Source of the DNA: Syncephalis plumigaleata
Taxonomy: Eukaryota; Zoopagomycota; Zoopagomycetes; Zoopagales; Piptocephalidaceae
Reading direction: 5' to 3'
DNA length: 45,696 nt
Assembly (NCBI GenBank): GCA_025201365.1
Contig: JAIXMF010000074.1
Span: 1-45,696, forward strand
The position numbers and the translations under genes were made by a program. Below are positions 1 through 39,532 of this stretch, piece by piece. The notes under the pieces are model-generated. The model was not told the DNA's origin and did no database searches. It saw only the letters and a program-made list of their open reading frames with translations. Within the stretch, counting starts at the first letter, position 1, and every line of letters starts with the position of its first letter.

Positions 1-75
1 AATAAAGATATTAATATTACAGAAAGAAGCAAGTAAATATGCATACGTATTATCATCTGCTTTTTTGTATTCAAC

Positions 76-1732
76 ATGTCCTTAAATGACAGCGAGTATG
101 GTTCTAGCAATCCTGATAGGTTACCAGGATTACTGGATAAGCTTACACATTGCGCGTGGAATTATTTATTAAGCACTTTGGATGCTGCTGAACTGACACG
201 TCTGAGCACTTGTTGTTGCTTATTAAGGAATGAAATACAAAATAATCACATCCTATGGAAGAACAAGTATAAAGACCGCTTTCTATCCGGCGTATACGAT
301 AAACATGAATGGGATTTTGTACTATGGTGTGCTCGAACTGACAAGAATAACGCGGTAAATTCAATGAAAAGAACCGAAGTACTAGCAAATCTAGACTGGT
401 ACAATATATATCGACGACGCGTAATCACCGAGTATAACTGGCGATTCGGTTATGCTAACACCACTCGCATTGACTTGCACCCTAGAAGAGGTGGACTATT
501 CGCGGAAATGAATGATGACACCGCTACAGGAGCCGTATTGTCTGGACATTGTTATGGCGATGGTTCAATAGTTTACCTCACCTATAATCTGGAATATCCT
601 GGTCATTCGGATCTTAGACGAAACAATAGGAACACTCGAGAGTGCACGCTATCGAATATGGACAATGTCGTCGTGTGGGATAAAGATGACAATGGTGGAC
701 AGCGTGTCTACTCGCAATTCCCCGTCATGAGTGATTATTATATCATGTTAGTATACAACTTGAATGCATCAAATGACGTTGCGGAGATACATACTCGTGG
801 ATATCCGAATATTCTGGGCAAGGTTCATGTTGCGCCGTATACGCTAGTCGATGCAATTGAAGGGAAATGGGCATTGCTATATAGTGTGGTCGACAAGAGT
901 ACAAATGAAATATCGTTAGAACCAGTTGGATCATCCCCTTATGATGGTAAGTAAAGGGAGAGCGGTATAATAAGCAATACTAACACGCGCGCTATTAATG
1001 GATGCAGCATACCGCACTAATATCACCGTAATGAATATGGAACTTACCACAGCGTGTCCTGGACGTATCGATGCTATTTGGGATGTTGCTTGCTTTTACG
1101 AAACAAAGGAGCACTCGGTAATTGTATACACGGCACGTATCAATAGGCAGGATAGCGATTACATGGAATGGGCATTATACCGCTTCTCTGATAATAATCC
1201 AGTAAGACAAATACGCAATGGATCTATACGATTGACCGGGATAGACACGCCAGCGCTATGTAGGCCCTATCCATTTGAAAAGACACGAATAATAATTGAA
1301 GTAGGCGAGATCAACTACAACTATGTGTATGTCGTGCATAGTGTGGCGCTATCGGGTGAAAGTCGAATGCCGCAACACGCTACGTATATTTCCACCGAAC
1401 GCATGCCTGATTCATTGCTGAAACTAGGCTTAATATACGATTATCCGCGTAGCATAACAATCTACAGCGATAAGTCATACGATAGCGAGAGGATGTCTCG
1501 TATTCGGGACACTGAACGATATGATCATATCATAGGAGATTTATACGCAGTCACGGTGGAGGAACCTGACGAGTTTGCAGTCCATTTAGTAGACGTCGGC
1601 ACAATGAAAAAACTAAGAAGATTGAATGACACTGACGAGTGTACCACTAAGGCCTATTACTCGATGACCGGTCTAATAACTTACGATAAAGGCGGTTGTA
1701 GAATGACTATGCATGAATATGGCGCGCTATAG
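76..1732 (+). CDS. F-box-like protein, paralogue A (two exons)
   Basis: Two exons, 76-946 and 1008-1732, joined across a 61-nt GTAAGT...GCAG intron with an ACTAAC branch motif. The phase-1 junction (G|CA) opens the second frame exactly and gives 531 codons. Residues ~17-65 resemble an F-box: an LPGLLDKL start, a run of hydrophobics, a double-cysteine CC at the helix (LSTCCCLL), then 'NHILWKNKY', which fits the usual lW ending. The rest is unrecognised; a WYNIYRRRV motif near residue 115 is conserved in two paralogues in this window (25225-26958 and 36832-38481). The known role of F-box proteins is as substrate adaptors of SCF ubiquitin ligases; that role is inferred here from the N-terminus alone. 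This copy is much more diverged than the other two are from each other, but has the same intron position and phase, so all three come from one two-exon ancestor. Confidence 0.62.
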
Positions 1733-3217: not shown

Positions 3218-5644
3218 AAACGTATGGAGGAGGCACTTGCTGCCCGATCAAAGGATGATCTTCGCTCGCCCATTTGCTGTATTCTTGGTCACGTAGATAC
3301 GGGTAAAACCAAGCTATTGGATAAGGTGCGCATTATTGGATTAGCTATTACCTATGCTAACCATTATTTCATATAGATCCGACAAACTAATGTTCAAGAA
3401 GGTGAAGCTGGTGGTATTACTCAACAAATTGGTGCCACCTACTTCCCGATTGATGCGGTTAAGCAAAAGACGGAATGCTTACCCGAGGTAATTCGATATT
3501 GCCACCGATCCACTAGTCAATAGTTATTAATGCTCGTTTACTTATAGGACATCAGAATTGAATACAAACTGCCTGGTCTATTGGTCATCGACACGCCAGG
3601 TCACGAGTCATTCACTAATCTACGATCTCGTGGTTCATCGCTGTATAACATCGCCATTCTCGTTGTAGATATTGTGGTAAGTAGATTGAGATAACGCGAA
3701 TGGAGTACATGAATACATTAGCTGATTGATTCATTCATTTGCAATATTATTATATAGCATGGTTTGGAGCCACAAACACTCGAGTCATTACGTCTATTGC
3801 GTGATCGTAAAACGCCATTTATTGTTGCACTAAACAAGGTTTGTACACTGCGAGGAATATACAAACGGAACAACTAATAATAATGTACAACGATATCGTT
3901 CGTATAGATTGATCGTGTCTACGACTGGAAACCAATTCCGAACAATGCGTTCCGCGACTCGCTTAGTAAACAAAAGCAACATGCACAACGGGAATTTGAG
4001 GATCGTACCAAAAAAGTCATATTGGAATTTGCTGAACAAGTGAGTCTAGTCGTCAGCTATTATAAAAGTAACACTAATGAATCATTCTATCCCCTGCGAT
4101 ACGATACGATACGATACGATTAGGGTCTCAACTCGTGTCTTTACTATGAGAATAAGAATCTTGGCCGTAATGTGTCGCTCGTGCCAACTTCAGCCATTAC
4201 AGGCGAGGGTATTCCCGATTTACTTAACCTGCTGGTGCAACTAACTTAAACGCGTATGAACGACAAGCTAATGTATTTGTCGGAACTGGAGTGCACAGTA
4301 TTAGAGGTAAAGGTGATAGAAGGCCTCGGCACCACCATTGATGTTGTATTGTCGAATGGCGTGTTGAACGAAGGTGACCGTATTGTGGTATGCGGCTTAA
4401 ACGGACCTATCGTCACCAATGTCCGAGCACTGCTTACACCGCAACCATTACGGGAATTACGAGTTAAGGTAAGGGAGACAAGCAATAGTGTCTTGATTAG
4501 TAGCATCAGCTTACCTGTAAATATACAATGATGATAGTCGGCCTACGTGCATCACAAGACCATTAAAGCCGCCATGGGTGTTAAGATTTGCGCGCCAGAA
4601 CTAGAAAAGACCATTGCCGGCTCCCGTCTCATGGTGGTTGGTCCGGATGACGATGAAGACGATCTAATGGACGAGGTCATGTCCGATCTGCAAACCTTGT
4701 TGAAGTCAGTCGACAAAAGTGGTCGCGGTGTTTGTGTACAAGCATCGACTATCGGTTCACTGGAAGCATTGCTGGAATTCCTGCGAGTATCAAAGATTCC
4801 CGTGTCCGGCATTAACATTGGTCCCGTGCATAAGCGTGACATTATTCGCTGCTCGACCATGTTGGAACGAGCCAAGGAATTCGCGGTAATGCTATGCTTT
4901 GATGTCAAGGTCGACAGGGATGCGCAAGAGTTGGCAGATGAAATGGGCATACGTATATTTACCGCCGATATCATCTACCATCTATTCGATCAATTTATGG
5001 CATACAATAAGGTAAACCTACTAGTGCACATAGCATAACAAGTGATTAGCAATGATGATGATGATGAACTAATATAGATGACTTTATTGTGGTATGTTAT
5101 TTAGGAAATTATGGAACAAAAACGCAAGGATCAAGCACCTGAAGCGGTCTTCCCTTGCGTATTAAAGATCGTGCCCGGTTGTGTATTCAACAAGCGTGAT
5201 CCAATCGTTTTGGGTGTCGACGTGGTAGAGGGTAGTCTCCGTCCTGGTACACCGATCTGCGTGATTAACACGGATCCTGAGACGAAGGAGAAAGAAATCA
5301 TCACGCTCGGTAAGGTGACCAGTATCGAGCAGAATCACAAGAGTGTCGACCTCGTAAAGAAGGGACAAGCTACCGCGGGTGTTGCCGTTAAGATTGAATG
5401 TCCCGTCTATGAAACACCGAAGATGGTAGGCCGTCACTTTACAGAACAGAATGAACTATACAGCAAGGTAAGCGCGGCACGACTATTGCTGTACTAATGG
5501 ATAGCATGACTAGAGTATTAATCGTCATGCTATTAGATATCTCGTCAATCAATTGATATTCTTAAGGAAAGCTTCCGTAACGATGTGTCCAAGGAGGAAT
5601 GGGCATTGATTGTTAAGCTAAAGAAGACGCTGGACATTCAATAA
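3218..5644 (+). pseudogene. 5'-truncated eIF5B copy with in-frame stop
   Basis: Exon remnants lie at 3218-3325, 3377-3487, 3548-3676, 3758-3838, 3908-4039, 4124-4468, 4538-5011, 5105-5467 and 5567-5644, with introns matching the full gene on the other strand. The G1 motif [13 protein letters not shown] is at 3279-3325, and the G3 region DTPGH and the C-terminal domains are present. It begins at the splice acceptor of the exon that opens [10 protein letters not shown], so the start codon and the charged N-terminal third are missing. A TAA at 4247-4249 replaces the CAA of the other copy (LVQLTQTR region), and TAT replaces TGT in the 'SSLCN' segment. It does keep the TTT (EFAEQ) that the full-length copy lacks. 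Best read as a pseudogene made by inverted segmental duplication. Confidence 0.85.
4098..4121 (+). repeat. GATAC pentanucleotide microsatellite in an eIF5B intron
   Basis: Four tandem GATAC-type units abut the splice acceptor (GATTAG) of the next exon. The same run is present in reverse complement at about 21091-21114 in the other arm, with the same unit number. Confidence 0.8.
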
Positions 5645-18900: not shown

Positions 18901-21900
18901 TATCCAGACAATATGTACTAATTCCCATTCTAATTGTCAATCAACTAATATTCAACAATAACGACAATATACCGGAATAATCAACCATGCTAATGCTTAT
19001 TGCCAACACTCATTGCCATCCATCATTGACAAGTATCCACTAGCAACATAAATAAACATGAATCATTTTGATCTGTATCGACATGTCATTATTGTATACC
19101 CTTCTATCTCATTATTGCTTCATTACCTTCTACTTGCCAGAACGACATTGTATCTTAGTCTGCTCATTCCTCTCTTTCATCCAGCATCAATGATTCCATA
19201 CACTCATTCCATTCTACTATTCTGGCATTTTATCAGTGATGCAAGTCATTTATTCCATTCTACTACCATCATACACATACCAATAAAGACAAGCTGTCCA
19301 TTGCTTCATACCGTTCAGAATGTATCATTCTTCTATTATTTCGTAATAATCCAAATAATCATACATGTATTGGTACAAAGCAAGAACATCAAGTAAATAC
19401 GGCAATTCCGTTTATTAATTCATAATCATATTACATAAATGTAAATAATGGTATAGCCATTTATTGAATAGCCATGTGACGTAGATCATCATTACCCGTT
19501 CACGCTGCATGTAATTAATACAAAAATGCACTCTTATGTAATTTACTACCTAATAGCATGTCATTTTATTTATTGAATGTCCAGCGTCTTCTTTAGCTTA
19601 ACAATCAATGCCCATTCCTCCTTGGACACATCGTTACGGAAGCTTTCCTTAAGAATATCAATTGATTGACGAGATATCTAATAGCATGACGATTAATACT
19701 CTAGTCATGCTATCCATTAGTACAGCAATAGTCGTGCCGCGCTTACCTTGCTGTATAGTTCATTCTGTTCTGTAAAGTGACGGCCTACCATCTTCGGTGT
19801 TTCATAGACGGGACATTCAATCTTAACGGCAACACCCGCGGTAGCTTGTCCCTTCTTTACGAGGTCGACACTCTTGTGATTCTGCTCGATACTGGTCACC
19901 TTACCGAGCGTGATGATTTCTTTCTCCTTCGTCTCAGGATCCGTGTTAATCACGCAGATCGGTGTACCAGGACGGAGACTACCCTCTACCACGTCGACAC
20001 CCAAAACGATTGGATCACGCTTGTTGAATACACAACCGGGCACGATCTTTAATACGCAAGGGAAGACCGCTTCAGGTGCTTGATCCTTGCGTTTTTGTTC
20101 CATAATTTCCTAAATAACATAACACAATGAAATCATCTATATTAGTTCATCATCATCGTTGCTAATCACCTGTTATGCTATGTGCACTAGTAGACTTACC
20201 TTATTGTATGCCATAAATTGATCGAATAGATGGTAGATGATATCGGCGGTAAATATACGTATGCCCATTTCATCTGCCAACTCTTGCGCATCCCTGTCGA
20301 CCTTGACATCAAAGCATAGCATTACCGCGAATTCCTTGGCTCGTTCCAACATGGTCGAGCAGCGAATAATGTCACGCTTATGCACGGGACCAATGTTAAT
20401 GCCGGACACGGGAATCTTTGATACTCGCAGGAATTCCAGCAATGCTTCCAGTGAACCGATAGTCGATGCTTGTACACAAACACCGCGACCACTTTTGTCG
20501 ACCGATTTTAACAAGGTTTGCAGATCGGACATGACCTCGTCCATTAGATCGTCTTCATCGTCATCCGGACCAACCACCATGAGACGGGAGCCGGCAATGG
20601 TCTTTTCTAGTTCTGGCGCGCAAATCTTAACACCCATGGCGGCTTTAATGGTCTTGTGATGCACGTAGGCCGACTATTATCATTGTATATTTACAGGTAA
20701 GCTGATGCTACTAACCAAGGTACTATTGCTTGTCTCCCTTACCTTAACTCGTAATTCTCGTAATGGTTGCGGTGTAAGCAGTGCTCGGACATTGGTGACG
20801 ATAGGTCCGTTCAAACCGCATACTACAATACGGTCACCTTCGTTCAACACGCCATTCGACAATACAACATCAATGGTGGTGCCGAGGCCTTCTATCACCT
20901 TTACTTCCAATACTGTGCACTCCAGTTCCGACAAATACATTAGTTTGTCGTTCATACGCGTTTGAGTTAGTTGCACCAGCAGGTTAAGTAAATCGGGAAT
21001 ACCCTCGCCTGTAATGGCTGAAGTTGGCACGAGCGACACATTACGGCCAAGATTCTTATTCTCATAGTAAAGACACGAGTTGAGACCCTAATCGTATCGT
21101 ATCGTATCGTATCGCAGGGGATAGAATGATTCATTAGTGTTACTTTATAATAGCTGACGACTAGACTCACTTGTTCAGCAATTCCAATATGACTTTTTTG
21201 GTACGATCCTCAAATTCCCGTTGTGCATGTTGCTTTTGTTTACTAAGCGAGTCGCGGAACGCATTGTTCGGAATTGGTTTCCAGTCGTAGACACGATCAA
21301 TCTATACGAACGATATCGTTGTACATTATTATTAGTTGTTCCGTTTGTATATTCCTCGCAGTGTACAAACCTTGTTTAGTGCAACAATAAATGGCGTTTT
21401 ACGATCACGCAATAGACGTAATGACTCGAGTGTTTGTGGCTCCAAACCATGCTATATAATAATATTGCAAATGAATGAATCAATCAGCTAATGTATTCAT
21501 GTACTCCATTCGCGTTATCTCAATCTACTTACCACAATATCTACAACGAGAATGGCGATATTACACAGCGATGAACCACGAGATCGTAGATTAGTGAATG
21601 ACTCGTGACCTGGCGTGTCGATGACCAATAGACCAGGCAGTTTGTATTCAATTCTGATGTCCTATTAATAAATGAGCATTAATAACTATCGACTAGTGGA
21701 TCGGTGGCAATATCGAATTACCTCGGGTAAGCATTCCGTCTTTTGTTTAACCGCATCAATCGGGAAGTAGGTGGCACCAATTTGTTGGGTAATACCACCA
21801 GCTTCACCTTCTTGAACATTAGTTTGTCGGATCTATATGAATTAATGGTTAGCATAGGTAATAGCTAATCCAATAATGCGCACCTTATCCAATAGCTTGG

Positions 21901-25224: not shown

Positions 25225-26958
25225 TTATAGTTCACCATATTCTTGCATCGTGTACACATCGCCGTCATAGGAACTACTTATCATACCAAGCATTGTGTCA
25301 ATTTTCAAATGCCCACCAGCGATAGGTGCTTCCAATTTACGTATTATTTCTTTTGTATTGATGTCTACAAGCAATCGATTGTATACATGATTACGCTCTT
25401 TTGTAATAAAAACATAGAGATCTCCAATAAAATTTCTAGTGAAAATCGTACCCGGTAAATGCAATACTTGATCGTCATTGTAGGATAAGTCTGTCCATAC
25501 TTTTGTCGGTTTGGAATCAAACATCGAATATCTGCATCCAGCTCTTAACAATGGAGCAAGTATATGCTGGTCTGTCATAATATAACTATTACGTGGAGTA
25601 TGGCTTTGACCATTGGATGCTACGCTATGCATTATGTATGGGTTATAATCAGGATGACCACCAAATTCAATTATCATATGCGAATCATATGAATTATACG
25701 GAATTGGCCATGCCGTCGGCATCTTCTCAGGTAGATGAAACCAGCCATTTCGCAATTGTACAACAGGATTATTACTCGAGAACTGGTATAATGCCCATTC
25801 AATACGATCTGTGTCATCATCGTGAACTATTCTTACCGTGTATACTATCGCTGTATTGTTAGTTGTTTTATGGAAACATATCGCATTCCATGTATCATCA
25901 ATGTTTCCTGGACACATGATACTATTATCTATATCGAATACCATTATATCGTCTAAATATATTGATTATTAGTACTAGTTATATTGCATTGTTGTATACT
26001 TACTACATATACAAATTGGCAAATCATCGGATGACTCGTATGATTCATGCACTAATAATACCCATTTCCCCTCGATTGCCTTCACTCGATATTGTACTGA
26101 AACGTCGAATGCTGTGAAGACACCACCATGTTTTCGAGAAAGTATTTTTATATTATAGTTGGTATCGCTCTCAATCACATAAGGAGATGTGGCTATATAA
26201 TGGTCACCCAGGACATAACTATGCCGAACTTCATTAACGCTACCCAAAGAAAGAACGTTTGGCGATGTGGAAAATGTACTGCTATACACAATGTTATTGC
26301 TTGATCTAAGATTTGAATGTGGCAAGTATTGTAAAGTATAATTATGGATTGACATTTTGTCTGGACGACCTTGCTGCGTTATAAATATACGATTATTATC
26401 AACATCTTCGCGATAATCTATTCCATCCCCGTCCTGTTCCATATCGATATTTGTGATATTGCATCGTCCATATCGCCAATTATTCTCAGTGCTCACTCGT
26501 CGACGATATGTGTTGTACCAGTCTACATTCTCTAGTAGATCGGCTCGTTTATCCGATGTACATGGATGGTTGACATCCGTGCGTATACACCATAGTACGA
26601 ATTCCATTTCTTTATCGTAATAGGCTCCCGATAGGAAATCCCTATGGTATAGTTCTTGCCATAATATTTGGTCATTTCGAATACTGCTTCTTAACGAGTG
26701 ACAACATGCTGATAAACGCAATAATTCGATATGATCAAGTTGACTACGGAAGGCACGCTGGTCATGAGATGGAAGAGTATTCAAACAAACTAGTAATCTA
26801 CAAGACAAGTTGGAATTACTCGATATTTCAGTAGTAGCAGTAGTAGTAGTAGTAGCAGTAGTAGTAGTAGTAGCAGTAGTAGTAGTAGTAGCAGTAGTAG
26901 TAGTAGTAGCTGTAGTAGTAGTAGTAGCTGTAGTAGTAGTAGTAGCTGTAGTAGACAT
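25225..26958 (-). CDS. F-box-like protein, paralogue C (two exons)
   Basis: Exons 26958-26004 and 25952-25225 flank a 51-nt intron (GTAAGT, TACTAATAAT branch, TTTAG), phase 1; 560 codons. It opens with a very long threonine run (~40 residues, from ACT-type codons), then an F-box-like block: LNTLPSHDQ, ELLRLSACC, then SIRNDQILWQELYHRDFLSG. WYNTYRRRV follows. The remainder, including EGKWVLLVHES near the end of exon 1, is shared only with the paralogues at 36832 and, more distantly, at 76. An SCF adaptor role is a family inference. Confidence 0.65.
26833..26955. repeat. Coding trinucleotide repeat (Thr run) in F-box paralogue C
   Basis: GTA/GCA trinucleotides on the plus strand, ACT/GCT-type on the coding strand, interrupted regularly by one variant unit about every six. 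The paralogue at 36832 has only about a dozen units, so the run has expanded or contracted since the duplication. Confidence 0.85.
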
Positions 26959-27045
26959 AGTGGAATGGAATAAGAAAGGCGATATGGGGTAGAGAAATAC
27001 GATGACGTTATTTTAATCAAGAATACACAAATAAATCATACGCAC

Positions 27046-29234: not shown

Positions 29235-29824
29235 TTACTATGACTATGACGAGATAAACGAATAAAAATAGCGTGTAATTGTAGGAGAGAAATACGATAA
29301 ATACAACGGCAATGAGCACAGCAGGGTGTACGGCTTTGTTGTACAGAAAGAAATGAAGAATAAACTAGTTAGACAAGAGTAGATCGTGGCAAGATCAAGT
29401 GCTACGGAAGAAGTGTTTCTCTGCAGTAATCGTAGTTTACAAGCAGTAAAAGTGTACGCAATAGTATGAATAACTATGCAGAGTAGAGTAGAATAAAGGC
29501 TATGAGTAATTACTATCGTAAGCTAGTGAGAGTACAAACGTGTAGAAGGCACAAAGGAATACAACGCAAACTGAATACGCTTATGCTTAGAAAACGTATG
29601 GAAACACGAAAAAGAACACGAAGAAGAAACACGGTAAAGAAATGCAGAAGTGGCAAGGTGTCAATGTGGTGTCGTTTAAATTAATCAAACGTGCCTGTGC
29701 TACTTCCCTAGAACTACCATACTGTTTGACCATATCCCTCTTTTTATTCTATTCTATACTCATTACTCCATTTCGCTTGTTTGTTTGTTTGTTTCTCTTG
29801 CTCTTCCATTAGGACAATATCAAC
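29235..29824. other. Upstream region of the micro-exon gene
   Basis: A purine-rich stretch (29340-29690), then a T-rich stretch with a TTTG repeat (about 29777-29795) ending in an acceptor-like 'tcttccattag' at 29803-29813, 11 nt before the ATG at 29825. This fits a 5'-UTR intron. The 60-codon Lys/Arg-rich frame at 29502-29684 is judged to be composition. Confidence 0.4.
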
Positions 29825-30494
29825 ATGGAATTATCTGATAATAATAACAATAGCCAGCCTATAGTCAATGCTACAACATCCGTATCATCAAATTCCACTG
29901 GTATTTCTATTATCATCATCATCATCGATACTAGTCAACATACTAATCGTAATACTACTATCTAATGGTCTTTCTAATGACAATCAATAGATGGTAAGTC
30001 TATATCGTATGACATTGATTGCGATACTGATGATGATGCCACATACGATGCTGTCAATCATAGCTGGTGAGTTAAACAACGAGTGATCATGGCATATGTC
30101 GTGTTGGCTGGAATGTAAATCAAAATCATATGTCACTATTATAGAAGCAGCCGTAAGTTGATATTCTGTCTAAATAAACATACAACGTACTAATTGCAAT
30201 ACTCGTATGATAGGAGGTGAGTTGTGAATCACGATAATACTATGCATACACTCATTGAAATGTGGCAATCGATTCCCGTATGATTATGGTGCATAGGAAC
30301 ACGTAAGCTACTAGTATCATTGTAATGAGCCATTTGATTCACGTATGATCGCATGTATTAGTGGGTAAGCGAGCACTCGTTGGAATGTGGCATTCGATTC
30401 ACCGATGATGACGCGTAATAGATTGTAAGTGGGCGGTATTCTGATTGCAGTATACGTCATGCTAATTGCAATGGCACAATTGCTTCACTTGTCA

Positions 30495-30531
<37 letters not shown>

Positions 30532-33500
30532 TGACAGTATGTAGGTGATCATTTCGATCATAGCATACGATGTGCTCATTACAAGTTGACATGTCATGAT
30601 ACGTGTACGATGACCTGTAACAGGATGTAAGTTGTTAGTCTAGCATTACTGTATAGTGTACTAATAACAACAACGATCATCATCATTCTCTTCGCATATG
30701 ATTGCACTAGTATGTAAGTGGACATTTCCATACTAATGCATGATATGTTAATAACAATGCATCACACACATATATATATACATAATAGATTGTAAGAAGT
30801 TAGCATTCCAGTCATACTAGTCGATGTACTCATTACTCTATGGCATACAATTCACATATGATTACGAGTAATAGGTTGTAAGTGATCATCGTTGCAGTGT
30901 ACGATCGATTAATTACAAGCTGATTGACAATTCACGTATACATCCATGTAACAGAGGGTAACTAGACATTCCTATCGTGATATGTGTGATGTGTTAATCG
31001 AAATGAGGAACATGGTTCATGATGGATGATTACACGGCATAGACTGTAGGTTGTCATTCTAGTATCAGTATACGGCATACTAATCATAGTATATATTTAT
31101 TATTACGAATAATAGGAGGCAAGTCATTATGATGACTATAAGATACGATATGCTGATTGTAGTATGATACATGATTGACTTGTAATAACACATGCAGAAA
31201 GATGTAAGCTAGCACTCCAATAATAATCACAATAATCATAATGCGATATACAATTCATATACATTTGTGTGTATGATGATCACACGACATAGACGGTAAG
31301 TTAACACGTGAACTACAATCCCAAATTGTAGCTCACCTATGACTATGGAATACAATAGGCCGTAAGTTATTGTTTCGATTGAAGCATACGAGACATTAAT
31401 TGAAGTGTGAAATACAATCAATTCACGTACTATCACGTACAACAGATGGTAAGCTAGCATTCTAATCACCGTAGAATGTATGCTAATTGGGGTGTGGCAC
31501 GTGATTCATGTATGATTATGAATGGTAGATGGTAAGCTAGTATTATAACGACAGTAGGTGATGTGTTAATTGTAATGTGGTATACAATCCATATGCATTT
31601 ATGAATGATAGCCTGTAAGCTAGCATTCTAATGACAATAGAGCACGCATTAATTGGAATATGACACGCGATTTGCATACGACTATGCACAGCGAATAGTA
31701 AGCTAGCACTATGATGACAATAGGTGCTGTGCTAATTATAATGCGGCATACAATTTTTGTATGATTATGAATGATAGACTGTAAGTCAATGTACCGAATT
31801 TAGTATGCAATGAGCTTACCGTAAATTGAAATATGATTCCCCTATGATTATGAATGGCAGTATGTAAGCTAGCACGATGATTACAGCGTGCAACCAGCTA
31901 ATTATAAAATGATATGCAACCCATCTATGATTACGAATGACAGGATGCAAGTTGACATATCAATTACATCGTACAATGAATTAATTGTAATGTGGCATAC
32001 GATTCACATATGATTGTGAATGATAGAGAGTGAGTGAACGCGTTGGTAACAGCATGTGATAAACTAACTGTAGATTGGCATATGATTCCCGTATGATTAT
32101 GAATGGCAGTGGGTAAGCTAGTATTCTAGTGACAATGGGCGATGTGCTAATTGCAATGCGGTGTATAATCCAATGCGTTTATTAATGATAGGGTGTGAGT
32201 TAGCATAATGGTTATTGCATACAGTGGACTGATTATAATGTATCATACGATTCACATATGATTATGAATGGCAGTATGTAAGTTGGAATAATGATAGCAG
32301 CATGCGATGGACTGATCATAATGCATCTTACGATTCTCGTACAATTACACGCTACAGGATGTAAGTAAGCATACAAATTACAGCGTATGATGAACTAATT
32401 GTAAATTAAATATAATTTTGTATAATTATGCGTGACAGGAGGTTAGTTAACATGTCGATTGCAGCATACGATGGACTAACATACAAAACTTGTGTATGAT
32501 TATACCTGACAGTATGTAAGTTAGCACGATGATTACAGCATACGATAGTCTAATTGTAATTAACATGTGACTTGTTTATAATTACGCATGACAGTTGGTA
32601 AGCTAGCACATTGATTATGGGTTTAATGGCTTAATCGTATTACGATACTCGATTTCTATACAATTGTATGGGACAGGGAGTAAGCTACCATACCGCCTGA
32701 AGCATACCATAAGTTAATAATATATATTGGAATCCACGTATGCTTATGGGGGCAGCTTGTAAGTTTATATACAGGCTGTATCAAACAGTATACTCATTAG
32801 AATGCGCTTTACAATCCCATAGCTTTCTGAACGGGAGAAAGTAAGTCAATATACAGAATTTAGTATGCAATGCGCTGATTGTAATGCGGTATACCATTGA
32901 AATATGCTTGTAAATGATAGGAGGTAGGCTAGCATTACCATTACCGCATGCAATATGTTAATCGTAATGTGGCATATGATCCATATATAATTACAAATGA
33001 TAGATAGTAAGTTATTTTCTCGATGTTAGTGTAAGATGAACTCATTGCAAGATGTCCTATAATTCGTGTATGCTTACATGTAATAGAGAGTAAGCTGATA
33101 CGTTGATTACAAGATGTGATACGTTAATGGTAATGTCATTGAATGATTCACATAAAACTACAAATGTTAGAGGGTAAGCCAGCATTCTGGTTACAATCTA
33201 CGGTATATTAATCGTATTGTGATACAATATTGACCGTTGTTTGTGTATGAAAGGAAGTAAGTCACCATTTTGTTTACATTCTACGGTATGTTAATCGGAA
33301 TGTGATATGTGCTTGTATTATTGTTACAGGAGGTAAGTTGATATCCGAATGATGAAGCATCATTCATTTATTACAATGAGGCATTCATCCCACGTAGAAT
33401 CGTATACGGGAAGAAGTAAGCTTTGTTGTTTGATTTGGTCAAGTATGTTGTGGCGCTAATCGATTGTTGTATGTCCTAGTTGAAGGCTGAGAATCGACGT

Positions 33501-36155
33501 GTAGGTTGATGTCACGATTACAATCTATGGTATACTAATCGGAATACGATATGTGATTGTATTATTGCTATTATAGAAAGTAAGCTGATATCCGAATGAT
33601 GAAGCATCATGCACTCATTACAATGGGACATACAATCCACGTATAATCATACAAAGAAAGCAGTAAGTTTTATCGTTTGATTTGGTCAAGCATCGTGTGA
33701 AGCTAATTCACTGTTGTATGGCCTAGTTGAAAGAAGCGAATCAACGTGTAAGTTGATGTCACCAGTACAATCTACCGTATACTAATCGGAATGTGACAAA
33801 TGTTTAACATATGACTGCATGATAGCTTGTAAGTTAAACGTGTCAGCTTGTAGACATGAAGCATTAATCATAGTGTGACATACAACTCCCATATAATCAT
33901 GGATACTAGGATGTAAGCTAGCATTGTTAGCATTGATACGTCGATCTAATTGCAATGTGGTAAACAACTCGCGTGTGATTACATATAACAGCTTGTAAGT
34001 GGGCATTGTAATCACGATATGCGGTGTACTGATTGCATTATGACACATGATTCACGTATGGTTGTATGCGGTAGTTTGTAAGTTTATTATTCTTGTTACG
34101 ACATACGAGACATTAATTGGAATGGGACATACAATCCACGTATGATTATGCACATCAGGGAGTAAGTCAGCATTCATGTTGTAATACGATATTGATAGCT
34201 GATAGTAATTTGGCATACCATTGATGTGTGTGTATGTGTGTGAATAATAGACCGTAAGCTAGCATTCTAATGGCAATTTGACGATGGACTAATAATCGTA
34301 ATGACGTGGTGTACACTCACAAATGATCATGAATGATAGATGGTAAGAAAGTCTACCTATTCATTCGAATAGTATAGTCGCTAACAGCAGTATGACATCT
34401 CATTCGTATATGTTTACGTGTCATAGGCAGTAAGTGGGCATTCGAATGTTATCGTATGGTAGATTGATTGCAGTATGATGGTATACGATTCATGTATGGC
34501 CACATTCTATAGTTTGTAAGTGGGCATTTTGATTGTAATGTAACATACAACTCACCTATGATTATGCATGATAGACGGTAAGCAGGCATTCCTATCCCGA
34601 TATACGACATGCTAATGACAATGTATGGCACACGATCCATGCATGATCATGTATGATAGAAGAAGGTAGGCTAGCATTCTAGTGGCACGTATTTCCCACT
34701 AATTGCAATACGGGATACGATCCATGTCTATGTGATTGCGTATGATAGCAAGTAAGTTGACGTATTGTTGCCGTGTATGTCGTGCTAACAGCAACAACAT
34801 CATGTCATATGATTGACGTATAACTATTGAACAGAAGGTAAACTAGTATGCCGATCAGTATAGACGATGTGCTCATTGTAATGCGAACACGATTCATGTA
34901 CACTTCCATACGATAGGATGTAAGTCGATAGTACTGTTACATTCTATGGTGCACTAATCACGAGACAACATACGAATCACATTTGATTACGTAGAATAAA
35001 GGGCAAGTGAGCATTTCAATGGCAATTTGCAATACGCTAATTACATTGCAACATTCAATTCCCGTATGATTGTGAATGACAGGAGGCAAGTTGGCATTTC
35101 TAATGACAATCTATGACGTGCTAATTGCAATGTACGCCATATGGATTGTGTATACTCACGTATAATAGCATGTGAGTGAGCACTTTTACTTGCAATATGT
35201 GACATGTTAATAACGATATGTGGCATACGATTCACGTATTACCGGATTAACAGAAGGCAAGCCAGTGATTCGATCGTGATATGTCGTGTGCTAATGGCAA
35301 TACGACATGCAATCCATGCATAATCACATACAATAGGAGGCAAGTCAATGGATTGATGACAAGCTATGCTATGCTAAATGCAATACGAGTTGACTAATAT
35401 ACGATAATGGGCAATAGAAAGTAAGCTATCATCTCGACTACGATGAATGATTCATTGATAGCAACATGTAACATGGCTCATTCACAATGGCACAACATAG
35501 GATGTAAGTCAATAGATGGCATAGTCACGATGCATGATGTACGACTAATCGATGTGCGATACGCAATCCAATACAATCATATCGAATAGCAAGTAAGCTA
35601 GTATTTCCGATGACAGTGTATGATCACTCAACCATAATGTGCTACTCGATCCATGTGGATTGTAAATAATAATAATAATAATAATAGGAAGTAAGTAGGC
35701 ATGCCAATCAATGTATACGCATTACTCATTGTAATGTGGCATGTTCTTCACGTATGCTGACATACATCAGATTGTAAGCCATCTTTCCGATTATCATAGA
35801 CTATACACTGATTACAATCAATGTAAAATACAATATGTGTATGATTGTATGATAGCTTGTAAGTGGGCAGTATGACGATAACAAATACCGCATTAATTGT
35901 AATGGAATACACGTCAATTGTTAAGACATCTTGAGGAATGGTAAGGCAATAATCCACAATGATCATACCCATACTAATGCATTATGATTACAGAGCAAGA
36001 CGAGGACATCATCAAGTAGATATTATAGGTATTCAAGTCAAGAATGGATTGGTGCAAGACCGTCATTTAGTGTCCATACCATTCAAGTCATTATTCCTTG
36101 GTACAACAACAACAAGTATATTTACAAGATTATCATTCAATCATTTATTGAATAA
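29825..36155 (+). CDS. Putative micro-exon gene: ~75 exons, most a single codon
   Basis: Exon 1 (29825-29900, ATG in context ATCAACATGG) reads MELSDNNNNSQPIVNATTSV then SSNST and ends in phase 1. Exons 2-4 (ATG 29991, CTG 30064, AAGCAGCC 30145-30152) give D-A-E-A-A and return to phase 0. From 30214 to 35858 come 3-nt exons, with a few of 6 nt and two of 21 nt, all keeping phase 0, without one stop. The product begins E, EH, W, I, Y, D, Y, I, V, R, T and becomes K/E/Q-rich, including LKAENRR and LKEANQR. The terminal exon at 35994 is open in phase 0 for 53 codons to the TAA at 36153-36155, overlapped by AATAAA at 36151. An extra GAATG exon (35936-35940) would instead end the chain early. Three acceptors are non-canonical (before 32838, 33410 and 35000). 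Function unknown. Splicing is inferred only from sequence. Confidence 0.5.
29994..33332 (+). repeat. Intron-unit array, first half (exon table)
   Basis: Units run GTAAGY...YAG and are usually 76-84 nt. Exon start and bases: 30214 GAG, 30297 GAACAC, 30362 TGG, 30422 ATT, 30538 TAT, 30624 GAT, 30711 TAT, 30789 ATT, 30875 GTT, 30955 AGG, 31043 ACT, 31116 GAG, 31198 AAAGAT, 31293 ACG, 31359 GCC, 31446 ATG, 31529 ATG, 31612 CCT, 31692 CGAATA, 31778 ACT, 31861 TAT, 31944 GAT, 32027 AGA, 32110 TGG, 32192 GGT, 32275 TAT, 32358 GAT, 32439 GAG, 32513 TAT, 32595 TTG, 32677 GGA, 32756 CTT, 32838 AAA, 32921 GAG, 33004 ATA, 33087 AGA, 33171 AGG, 33254 GAA, 33330 GAG. Donors are GTAAGT/C in most; GTGAGT, GTAGGT, GTTAGT and GTAACT are variants; GC donors occur at 31119 and 31947. 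The introns resemble each other: GTAAGCTAGCATTCTAAT at the start, CTAATTGTAATG in the middle, then CATACGATTCACGTATG, then TGATTATGAATGATAG. Confidence 0.85.
30498..30527 (+). repeat. CA dinucleotide microsatellite inside an array intron
   Basis: Fifteen CA units lengthen this one intron to 113 nt (30425-30537), the longest clear unit of the array. Its splice sites (GTAAGT, GACAG) are intact. Confidence 0.9.
33257..33747 (+). repeat. ~245-bp tandem duplication of three units within the array
   Basis: 33257-33500 and 33501-33747 align throughout. Each half contains a 3-nt exon (GAG 33330 / AAA 33577), a 6-nt exon (GAAGAA 33410, preceded by GG instead of AG / AAAGCA 33657, preceded by AAAG) and a 21-nt exon (LKAENRR 33480-33500 / LKEANQR 33727-33747). 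The halves differ at several coding sites yet both 21-nt exons stay open in phase 0. Confidence 0.88.
33748..35993 (+). repeat. Intron-unit array, second half (exon table)
   Basis: Exon start and bases: 33826 CTT, 33910 GAT, 33992 CTT, 34075 TTT, 34159 GGA, 34251 ACC, 34340 ATG, 34427 GCA, 34513 TTT, 34575 ACG, 34660 AAGAAG, 34749 CAA, 34835 AAG, 34917 GAT, 35000 AGG (uncertain: the preceding bases are AA), 35083 GAG, 35169 CAT, 35254 AAG, 35337 GAG, 35418 AAA, 35501 GAT, 35590 CAA, 35688 GAA, 35771 ATT, 35856 CTT. GC donors cluster at 35003, 35086, 35257 and 35340. One unit (35593-35687) contains an AAT microsatellite. The last interval (35859-35993) has a GAATG candidate exon or is one 135-nt intron ending in GATTACAG with an ACTAATGC branch motif. 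Confidence 0.83.
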
Positions 36156-36299
36156 ATATGTCGTATTCTGACCATTATAATCAATAGACGATATGTGTTG
36201 TTAATATCACGTAGAAGTAATCAGTGTCATCTAAGAGCCTTTCCTAATGGAATGATGACGATTAATGGAAAATCGAATTGTGTTGGCCACTGTCTTTTT
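36156..36299. other. Short spacer between the array gene and the right inverted-repeat arm
   Basis: No gene seen. It ends in a run of nine T at 36294-36302 that abuts the arm boundary. Confidence 0.45.
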
Positions 36300-36456
36300 T
36301 TTACAGAATTCCTCCTTCTGCTTAAAGCAGTTAGCCTTTCGTTTTTACGAATAAATAGTAGTTATGATAATAAAGCTTACGTATTTAGATGTGAGTAGCG
36401 GTAACCATCACGGTTAAGTTGTTTCTTGTTGTCCTTGTCATCCTTTTCTTGAACGT

Positions 36457-36744: not shown

Positions 36745-36831
36745 TTGTGTATGATTTATTTGTGTATTCTTGATTAAAATAACGTCATCATATTTCTCTA
36801 TCCCTTACCGCCTTTCTTATTCCATTCCACT

Positions 36832-38481
36832 ATGTCTACTACTACTACTACTACTACTACTACTATTACTACTACTGAAATATCGAGTAATTCCAACTCG
36901 TCTTGTAGATTACTAGTTTGTCTGAATAGTCTTCCATCTCATGACCAGCGTGTCTTTCGTAGTCTACTTGGCCATACCGAATTATTGCGTTTATCAGCAT
37001 GTTGTCGCACGTTAAGAAGCAGTATTCGAAATGACCAAATATTATGGCAAGAACGCTACCATAGGGATTTCCTATCGGGAGCCTATTACGCTAAAGAAAT
37101 GGATTTCGTATTATGGTGTATACGCACGGATGTCAACAATCCATGTACATCGGATAAACGAGCCGATCTACTAGAGAATGTGGACTGGTACAACACATAT
37201 CGTCGACGAGTGAGCACCGAGAATAATTGGCGATATGGGCGATGCAATATCACAAATATCGATATGGAACAGGACGAGGATGGGATAGACTATCGCGAAG
37301 GTGTTAATAATAATCGTATAATTATAACGCAGCAAGATCGCTCAGACAAAATGTCAGGTCATAATTATACTTTAAAATATTTGCCACACTCAAATCTTAG
37401 ATCAAGCAATAACATTGTGTATAGCAGTACATTTTCCACATCGCCAAACGTTCTTTCTTTGGGTAGCATTAATGAAGTTCGGCATAGTTATGTCCTGGGT
37501 GACCATTATATAGCCACATCTCCTTATGTGATTGAAAGCGATACCAATTATAATATAAAAATACTATCTCGCAAACATGGTGGTGTTATCATTGCATTCG
37601 ACGTTTCAGTACAATATCAAGTGAAGGCAATCGAGGGGAAATGGGTACTATTAGTGCATGAATCATACGAGTCATCCGATGATTTGCCAATTTGTATATG
37701 TAGTAAGTATACAACAATGCAATATAGTTAGTACTAATAATCAATATATTTAGACGATATAATGGTATTCGATATAGATAATAGTATCATGTGTTCAGGA
37801 AACATTGATGGTAGATGGAATGCGACATGTTTCTATAAAACAACCAATAATACAGCAATAGTATACACGGTAAGAATAGTCCACGATGATGACACAGATC
37901 GTATTGAATGGGCATTATACCAGTTCTCGAGCAATAATCCTGTTGTACAATTGCGAAGTGGCTGGTTTCATCTACCTGAGAAGATGCCGACGGCATGGCC
38001 AATTCCGTATAATTCATATGATTCGCATATGATAATTGAATTTGGTGGTCATCCTGATTATAACCCATACATAATGCATAGCGTAGCATCCAATGGTCAA
38101 AGCCATACTCCACGTAATAGTTATATTATGACAGACCAGCATATACTTGCTCCATTGTTAAGAGCTGGATGCAGATATTCGATGTTTGATTCCAAACCGA
38201 CAAAAGTATGGACAGACTTATCCTACAATGACGATCAAGTATTGCATTTACCGGGTACGATTTTCACTAGAAATCTTATTGGAGATCTCTATGTTTTTAT
38301 TACAAAAGAGCGTAATCATGTATACAATCGATTGCTTGTAGACATCAATACAAATGAAATGATACGTAAATTGGAAGCACCTATCGCTGGTGGGCATTTG
38401 AAAATTGACACAATGCTTGGTATGATAAGTAGTTCCTATGACGGCGATGTGTACACAATACAAGAGTATTGTGAACTATAA
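36832..38481 (+). CDS. F-box-like protein, paralogue B (two exons)
   Basis: Exons 36832-37702 and 37754-38481, with a 51-nt intron identical in position and phase to paralogue C; 532 codons. The Thr run is short here (~14 residues with one Ile). F-box-like block: LNSLPSHDQRVFRSLLGHTE, LLRLSACCRTLRSSI, NDQILWQERYHRDF. The second exon (MVFDIDNSIMC...) differs from paralogue C by about ten residues in 239 with no stops, so both copies look maintained. No regulatory site identified. Confidence 0.67.
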
Positions 38482-38659: not shown

Positions 38660-39532
38660 CTACGATAATTCATGACGCTTCATACGAGCTTCAATCACCA
38701 TTCGTACAAAGTAATGATGCCAGCGATTATCACCGGTCAGTTCCGGGTGGAAGGCACAAGCGAGTATATCATGATAGCGTACGGCTACAACTTCTGCCGG
38801 TTTACCGGGTACACGCTCCACTCGTGTTAATACTTGAACATCCTCGCCGACTGCTTCTACCACGGGGGCACGAATAAATAATGCAGGGAATCCTTTAGCT
38901 TCGTCGGCGGTAGAACCTGTTGCACAGAGTACGGCCTTTGGTTCCGAGAGAGTAGCCTCGAAACTCTCCACTTGTGATCCAAAACGATTACGATACACGG
39001 TAATGGGGAGTGCTCCCAGTAAAGCTTGTCCATCCTGCTTCTGATTATGCGCCTCCGATGACAATAGAATCATACCGGCACATGTACCCTAAGCAAATAA
39101 AAAACATATATAGGATGATGATTACTATGACTTTGATGCTACCGTTTAACATTGAGATGATAGGTCATGGATGCTTACCCAAACAGGACGGTTTCGTACT
39201 AGTTCCTGTAGCGCGGACCAGGCACCACTACGCTGCGCAACAATGGACATGGTAGTGCTTTCGCCACCAGGAATAATAAGTCCATCAAGACGTGGATCTT
39301 CAATATCTGCCTTGCTACGCACTTCGACTGCCTCGATATCCGGTCGTACCTGCCGTAGCATCACTAAATGTTCGTGAAAACCACCCTGTATCGCTACAAA
39401 GCAAAATGACAATATCACATTAGTGGATGCTATCTATAGAGTGAGTATGACTCGTTTACCAAGTACACCAATACGTAGTGCAGGTGTAAACTCGCTTGTG
39501 GATGTTGTACTAGTGCTGATAGCGTTCGTCAT
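38660..39532 (-). CDS. PDX2: Pyridoxal 5'-phosphate synthase glutaminase subunit (PdxT/Pdx2/Sno)
   Basis: Three exons, 39532-39460, 39393-39179 and 39088-38660, all in phase (239 codons including the stop). Class-I glutamine amidotransferase of the SNO/PdxT family: GVLAIQGGFHEHLVML (N-terminal strand and family motif), LIIPGGESTTMS (oxyanion region), GTCAGMILLS with the nucleophilic cysteine, and FHPELTGDNRWH with the catalytic His-Glu. The known role is to hydrolyse glutamine and channel ammonia to the Pdx1/Snz synthase subunit for vitamin B6 synthesis. No Pdx1/SNZ gene is in the window. In many fungi SNO and SNZ are divergent neighbours; here the upstream neighbour is MED13. Confidence 0.94.

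Follow-up and report, generated by a model that had tools for sequence, protein, structure and literature searches.

Whether a gene can be built almost codon by codon, with most of its coding triplets lying on separate exons of three nucleotides (nt), is the question raised by a locus of the Zoopagales fungus Syncephalis plumigaleata, which we take to be a mycoparasite (a parasite of other fungi). The locus lies on the + strand of contig JAIXMF010000074.1 (GenBank assembly GCA_025201365.1); the stretch of DNA analysed, 45,696 nt in full, is referred to as the window and the gene, which begins at 29825, as the window gene. A preliminary description had counted 62 intervals of exactly 3 nt between 29991 and 35858 and had read them as a succession of one-codon exons, and this reading is supported overall: the window gene is very probably protein-coding and a member of a large S. 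plumigaleata family in which most coding triplets would form separate spliceosomal exons. A regular-expression (regex) search for AG, three bases and a donor gave 65 matches from 29991 to 35858, of which two (34431 and 35692) are nested and false, leaving 63, and a parse of the gene that used splice signals, the frame and a preference for exon length, with the exon-1 donor imposed, predicted 70 exons, 61 of them exactly 3 nt. The 3-nt intervals therefore number about 61-63, so the earlier count was right within a few. The remaining exons of the parse include an 8-mer, two 21-mers, an 18-mer, two 6-mers, a 12-mer and a doubtful last 9-mer at 36020; the 8-mer at 30145-30152, the two 21-mers and the several 6-mers first described are all present in the parse or by reading of the sequence. 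No in-phase triplet of the window gene is a stop, as had been claimed.

Homologues of the peptide encoded by these triplets are found in intronless open frames of the same genome; the preliminary description had proposed to look for it in ordinary exons of related fungi. Residues 1-111 of the public protein P0013 (BDF22DRAFT_742100) lie in one open frame at C318:1455923-1456258 (locus L069; C and L numbers are used here for contigs and loci), which is also present on a duplicate contig, and L070 and L071 are two more intronless homologues of the window gene. The eight one-codon exons at 30362-30957 read W-I-Y-D-Y-I-V-R against WIQDYIVR in an intronless homologue, and the 21-mer LKEANQR followed by the nine one-codon exons L-D-L-F-G-T-M-A-F (33826-34515) aligns with intronless QAANQHLDLFGAAAF. 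Sixty one-codon exons of the window, aligned as a string that left out exon 1 and the 21-mers, score 57, 47 and 49 against L069, L070 and L071, and 0, 4 and 0 of 2000 shuffles of their order scored as well; for the one-codon exons of the paralogue L039 the corresponding numbers were 0, 10 and 12 of 2000. The spliced window peptide matches P0013 in BLASTP at 2e-15 (40% over 100 residues) and L070 at 2e-11 (57% identity over 49 residues), with a query that includes the dipeptides EH and KD, added by eye with the homologues in view, and omits LSEREK. The order and phase of the units originally proposed are confirmed.

Intronless members are not confined to these three loci. A pattern for the joined 3' junction matched the genome 28 times (control 0), with two of the matches, C1:1663760 (in L043) and C146:88100 (by TTACAG), resembling intron ends of array genes. 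Of 15 small regions read, seven (L053, L054, L057, L060, L061, L063 and L067) have an open, intronless frame that runs from the signal exon to a stop just ahead of the 3' block, with these two parts joined where predicted; in the remaining eight the frame is interrupted. L054 is identical to the public S. plumigaleata protein BDF22DRAFT_673979. Public gene models, which may or may not rest on RNA, also chain such codons. The 92-residue BDF22DRAFT_685685 matches the genome at residues 1-33 and 69-92, 3.8 kb apart, with no contiguous match for residues 34-68, and the parse of L068 yields the same chain plus five small exons and a different end. BDF22DRAFT_658496 likewise chains window-like codons, with gaps, and its middle run reads TYRGYDEYLLSEREKEIRKEE.

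The layout recurs across the genome. A two-unit pattern (ATAG, three bases, GTAAG, 58-88 bases, AG, three bases, GTAAG) has 817 + 680 = 1497 matches and its reversed form 0 + 1, and the layout is therefore not due to chance. Since this strict pattern catches 122 units where looser rules find 326 (14 loci), it is likely that the genome holds a few thousand units, duplicate contigs included. The conserved first exon matches at 178 places and the conserved 3' block at 155 (controls 0), counts that take in intronless members and duplicate contigs, so that array genes are fewer. In 13 of the 14 loci fetched, between 6 and 61 one-codon units are clustered with no stop among them; L047 lacks such a cluster. 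Most array loci read have an exon for a putative signal peptide, which the window gene, a long member of the family, lacks. In a typical member (L044 and L045 read, six genes parsed cleanly) the first exon is 94 nt, begins M-K-F-S-A-V-I-A-I-A..., mostly has a dibasic end and stops in phase 1; two small exons (three in L044) and a 5-nt exon (2-nt in L042) return the frame to phase 0, and a run of one-codon exons leads to a last exon carrying the stop. Of 13 array loci, 11 have this stop in phase with the closest YAG acceptor (10 judged by motif and L041 by eye), and in L045 and L050 an AAG nearer to the stop would be out of phase. The mature chains vary widely among members, with C...CC...C patterns in L044, L051 and L052, and most members read would make secreted, dibasic-processed peptides. 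No Pfam match above the cut-off was found for six proteins, and no Rfam match in 29400-36400. A TATA-box region upstream of the signal exon is, by eye, common to L064, L065, L044, L045 and L052. A similar signal exon, in some cases continuing as if into the first intron, occurs in proteins P0019, P0020, P0022-P0025 and P0027-P0029 from jgi/ena contigs, and related organisms with this gene family may therefore exist.

The predicted array triplets behave as in-phase codons. Genome-wide, TAA and TGA together occupy 2 of the 1497 units and TAG none; the two stops, both TGA, are at C112:2052664 and C226:2683, one haplotig pair. About 37 stops would be expected from the base frequencies of 312 local units, or about 16 when this figure is scaled by the shortfall of TAT and TGT (23 seen, about 53 expected), and the 312 local units themselves have 0 against 7.7 expected. 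The third base also depends on the box to which the amino acid belongs. Among the triplets of eight putatively secreted array genes it is a purine in 2/81 fourfold-box vs 43/81 split-box triplets (p 5e-14, 0/5000 shuffles), and in regex-only units in 8/127 vs 56/121 (p 1e-13), values from a test that was chosen after the result of a codon-usage test and in which triplets of related genes are not independent. The same pattern is seen in exon 1 of the same eight genes (13/166 vs 37/82) and in the mature part of five intronless members (11/101 vs 31/77).

Read from its 5' end, the window gene begins with a 76-nt exon (29825..29900, parsed with the donor imposed) that reads MELSDNNNNSQPIVNATTSVSSNST followed by a G, ends in phase 1 and has no signal peptide; the intronless L070 begins MELPANNNNNSRN, and four public models (P0030, P0032, P0033 and P0036) use an upstream start in place of 29825. 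Two one-codon exons in phase 1, ATG at 29991 and CTG at 30064 (29991..30066, regex and parse), precede the 8-nt exon AAGCAGCC (30145..30152, parse), which returns the frame to phase 0. Together these exons read GAT GCT GAA GCA GCC, or DAEAA, where L070 reads DSEAAG contiguously, in keeping with the role of phase correction first assigned to the 8-mer. The 5' block at 30214..31448 comprises the one-codon exons E, W, I, Y, D, Y, I, V, R, T, E, T, A and M (regex, parse and reading) and is colinear with L069, L070 and L071. Within it, the 6-mers GAACAC (30297-30302), after the first E, and AAAGAT (31198-31203), after the second, were left out by the parse and read by eye from the sequence; homologous proteins have EH and KD at these positions, and GAACAC is chosen as an exon under other parse settings. 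The variable middle run at 31529..33332 (regex and parse) consists of one-codon exons, a 6-mer at 31692-31697 and an 18-mer at 32823-32840 (LSEREK), of which a 3-mer at 32838 is better taken as the tail, as in the public model of a near relative. Parses of the middle vary with their settings, and single codons there are uncertain.

Two 21-nt exons follow in the parse, LKAENRR at 33480..33500, inside a 247-nt tandem duplication, and LKEANQR at 33727..33747, homologous to QAANQH of the intronless L069. The next one-codon exons, at 33826..34919 (regex and parse), read L, D, L, F, G, T, M, A, F and T, then a KK 6-mer (34660-34665), then Q, K and D, and are colinear with LDLFGAAAFEKRQKD in L069. 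The remaining parsed exons, at 34995..35858, are AATAAAGGGCAA (or AATAAAGG) at 34995 and one-codon E, H, K, E, K, D, Q, E, I and L; these ten codons, 35083-35858, are identical in L039. Three C-termini are candidates: a small exon with a TGA at 35932, a frame continuing through the 3' block, and the ending of the public models. The first corresponds to the candidate terminal exon ACATCTTGAGGAATG (35926..35940), which has the TGA in phase, was read by eye and is not picked by the parses; the alternative to it would join 35858 to 35994 and have its stop farther downstream. The stretch 35994-36155 had been read as coding, a claim that does not hold well, since it belongs to a block common to the family (35994..36167, with AATAAA) whose core gives the 155 matches noted above and which lies behind the stop in intronless members; it is probably a 3' untranslated region.

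The parse places 69 introns between 29901 and 35993, mostly of 70-90 nt, with GTAAGY, CTAAY and YAG signals. The units carry a donor, a branch-point-like motif and an acceptor: among 265 introns, 190 have GTAAGT, 38 GTAAGC and 10 a GC donor, and a YTRAY motif stands at the expected place in 250, as a raw frequency. As the units were picked by donor and AG, only the branch point, the spacing and the wider consensus are independent of the selection. Array introns resemble those of an ordinary gene in size and ends, the comparison being by eye with one eIF5B-like gene of the window, whose introns are roughly 55-95 nt with GT..AG ends. Splicing would most likely proceed by intron definition, each 70-90 nt intron being recognised alone and the introns removed one after another, as in the proposal for a 1-nt exon in Arabidopsis (PMC4674806). 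Each 3-nt exon would be joined to the growing upstream exon, and the resulting mRNA would be roughly 0.5 kb. Because the unit would be one whole codon plus one phase-0 intron, its duplication, loss, exchange or skipping would leave the frame intact, and the peptides of the family could change one residue at a time between a first exon and a 3' block that remain similar. The function would be a rapidly varying peptide repertoire. Somewhat short of an even chance, we propose that the genes form a peptide-diversifying superfamily in which the residue is an exon module that can be duplicated, exchanged or skipped without risk to the frame, with a constant first exon and 3' block and occasional intronless copies derived from cDNA.

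Several observations weigh against the reading of the arrays as codons. Array genes are known here from genomic sequence alone. Several of the splice parses are unstable across settings, and wrong frames or no gene resulted when weak acceptors (AAG) were excluded and the exon-1 donor was left free; constrained parses were used for the results. The lack of stops is modest in 162 local triplets, as 124/5000 third-base shuffles have none either, and the third-base test is marginal for the window gene and L039 (13/30 vs 52/81, p 0.054). Whole codon usage, compared in a likelihood test, gave no support for coding, the codon-usage model being worse than position composition in both gene sets, in a comparison where the reference open reading frames (ORFs) prefer other codons and one of nine reference stretches was out of frame (46 stops). 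Six mature peptides had no contiguous copies, in a search that had no positive control and shows little. L068 has its last YAG acceptor out of phase, and L049 lacks a terminal motif; the L041 first exon hits a stop and that of L043 leaves the usual frame, and these two may be dead copies. BDF22DRAFT_685685 omits the five small exons predicted in L068 (a 9-mer, TGC, GGA, ACACCT and CCT).

The paralogue L039, on C1, adds to these points. At either end it shares about 93% identity with the window, and its introns diverge from those of the window by 6.2% in 29990-31440 and 5.7% in the other flank, against 36% in 31440-33300; the 63 aligned exons divide into 34 that are identical and 29 that are not. 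Within the flanks 10/140 exon bases differ, and all seven changed codons are nonsynonymous. There is no purifying constraint in this pair, and by comparison with the intron values codons and introns of the flanks evolve at about the same rate, under either relaxed or diversifying selection.

Given that public models leave out predicted codons, inclusion need not be constitutive, and the exons may be real with largely alternative inclusion, codons being skipped in frame to give many peptide isoforms per gene. The omissions in BDF22DRAFT_685685 and BDF22DRAFT_658496 keep the frame and the units are symmetric, but intronless homologues have residues at most of the positions compared and the omission of a codon in a model may be an annotation artefact; alternative inclusion on this scale is possible and, on balance, rather unlikely. 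A similarly doubtful alternative concerns the direction of change. Introner-like elements are single intron sequence families repeated over many genes as scattered insertions; the array introns may resemble them in forming one family in many genes, and differ from them in alternating with single codons in arrays. An intronless gene might thus have been invaded codon by codon by such an element, the intronless copies being ancestral and not derived from cDNA. In ten array genes, 324 introns of 65-100 nt belong to one diverged family (mean pair identity 0.616 vs 0.544 for shuffled cores), and inside most genes similarity decays little with distance, two points that would suit such an invasion. 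The nearest relative of an intron lies in another gene in 145 cases, in the same gene in 89 and within the window/L039 pair in 90. L064 and L065, which are intronless and not intact, share the TATA region with the arrays L044, L045 and L052, as a plain retrocopy would not; this fits either recombination with cDNA or an intronless ancestor. Random insertion would hardly place introns at nearly every phase-0 boundary, and L069 matches the window over 29735-36162 and no further, starting about 90 nt upstream of the ATG and ending shortly after AATAAA, as expected of an mRNA copy.

That the array is a non-coding minisatellite of intron-like units, either one long intron or untranscribed, with the triplets as spacers, is very improbable. 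The units are tandem and mutually related, neighbouring units are near-identical in L042 and L045, and the minisatellite would account for the unconstrained window/L039 pair and for an array known from DNA; the colinear intronless homologues, the few stops, the link of third base to amino-acid box and the public models that chain the codons argue against it. Multiplication of the array by an assembly or haplotype artefact, for which short contigs repeating long-contig sequences and the inverted duplication in the window contig might be cited, is very improbable too, as arrays that differ in their codons also lie on long contigs, C1 (3.0 Mb) and C2 (0.8 Mb) among them.

Elsewhere in the contig, the eIF5B-like gene, with an IF-2 domain, is present in two inverted copies at 4538-5497 (+) and 19717-21087 (-), the first with an in-frame stop and the second without, possibly a haplotype or assembly effect. 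Three related ORF pairs surround the array gene, at 37-1732 (+), 25225-27012 (-) and 36778-38481 (+), with an F-box-like match below the curated cut-off in two of the three tested. The stretch at 38660-39088 (-) matches part of the family profile of the SNO glutamine amidotransferase domain.

Syncephalis is named among mycoparasitic Zoopagomycotina (PMC10386755). Among the top-ranked matches in the open literature, in which preprints are thinly covered, nothing was found on successive one-codon exons or on micro-exons in Syncephalis. The array genes are micro-exon genes in a descriptive sense and far more extreme, 61 of 70 predicted window exons being 3 nt. The micro-exon genes (MEGs) of schistosomes, with exons of 3-81 bp and introns of up to 5 kbp (PMC10526429), are likewise a multi-gene family of secreted proteins with very short exons, but their introns are long, whereas those described here are 70-90 nt, belong to one sequence family and separate dozens of consecutive one-codon exons. 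Membership among the schistosome MEGs is not claimed, as intron length differs, a separation by description and not by sequence. The bicycle genes of aphids, rapidly evolving putative effectors with about 17 exons on average and many micro-exons almost all of one phase (PMC9168663), resemble the arrays as a fast-evolving family with many single-phase micro-exons; their internal exons are in phase 2, whereas here phase 0 follows a 5- or 8-nt exon and each exon is one codon. Membership is again not claimed, since phase and organisms differ, and here too the distinction is one of description and not of protein sequence. Single very small exons, such as the 1-nt exons of Arabidopsis APC11, for which intron definition and sequential removal were proposed (PMC4674806), and of Fusarium CYP621A (PMC12940212), indicate that spliceosomes cope with exons of 1-3 nt, but they are isolated in ordinary genes and the arrays have runs of tens.

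If the reading is correct, single transcripts would carry dozens of consecutive one-codon exons, far beyond the isolated exons of 1-3 nt in the papers cited here, and one genome would contain many such genes. They would allow direct tests of sequential splicing, of intron definition and of how small an exon can be, and ordinary annotation may miss or misread them. The arrangement suggests how a parasite could vary its secreted peptides by single residues without frameshifts.

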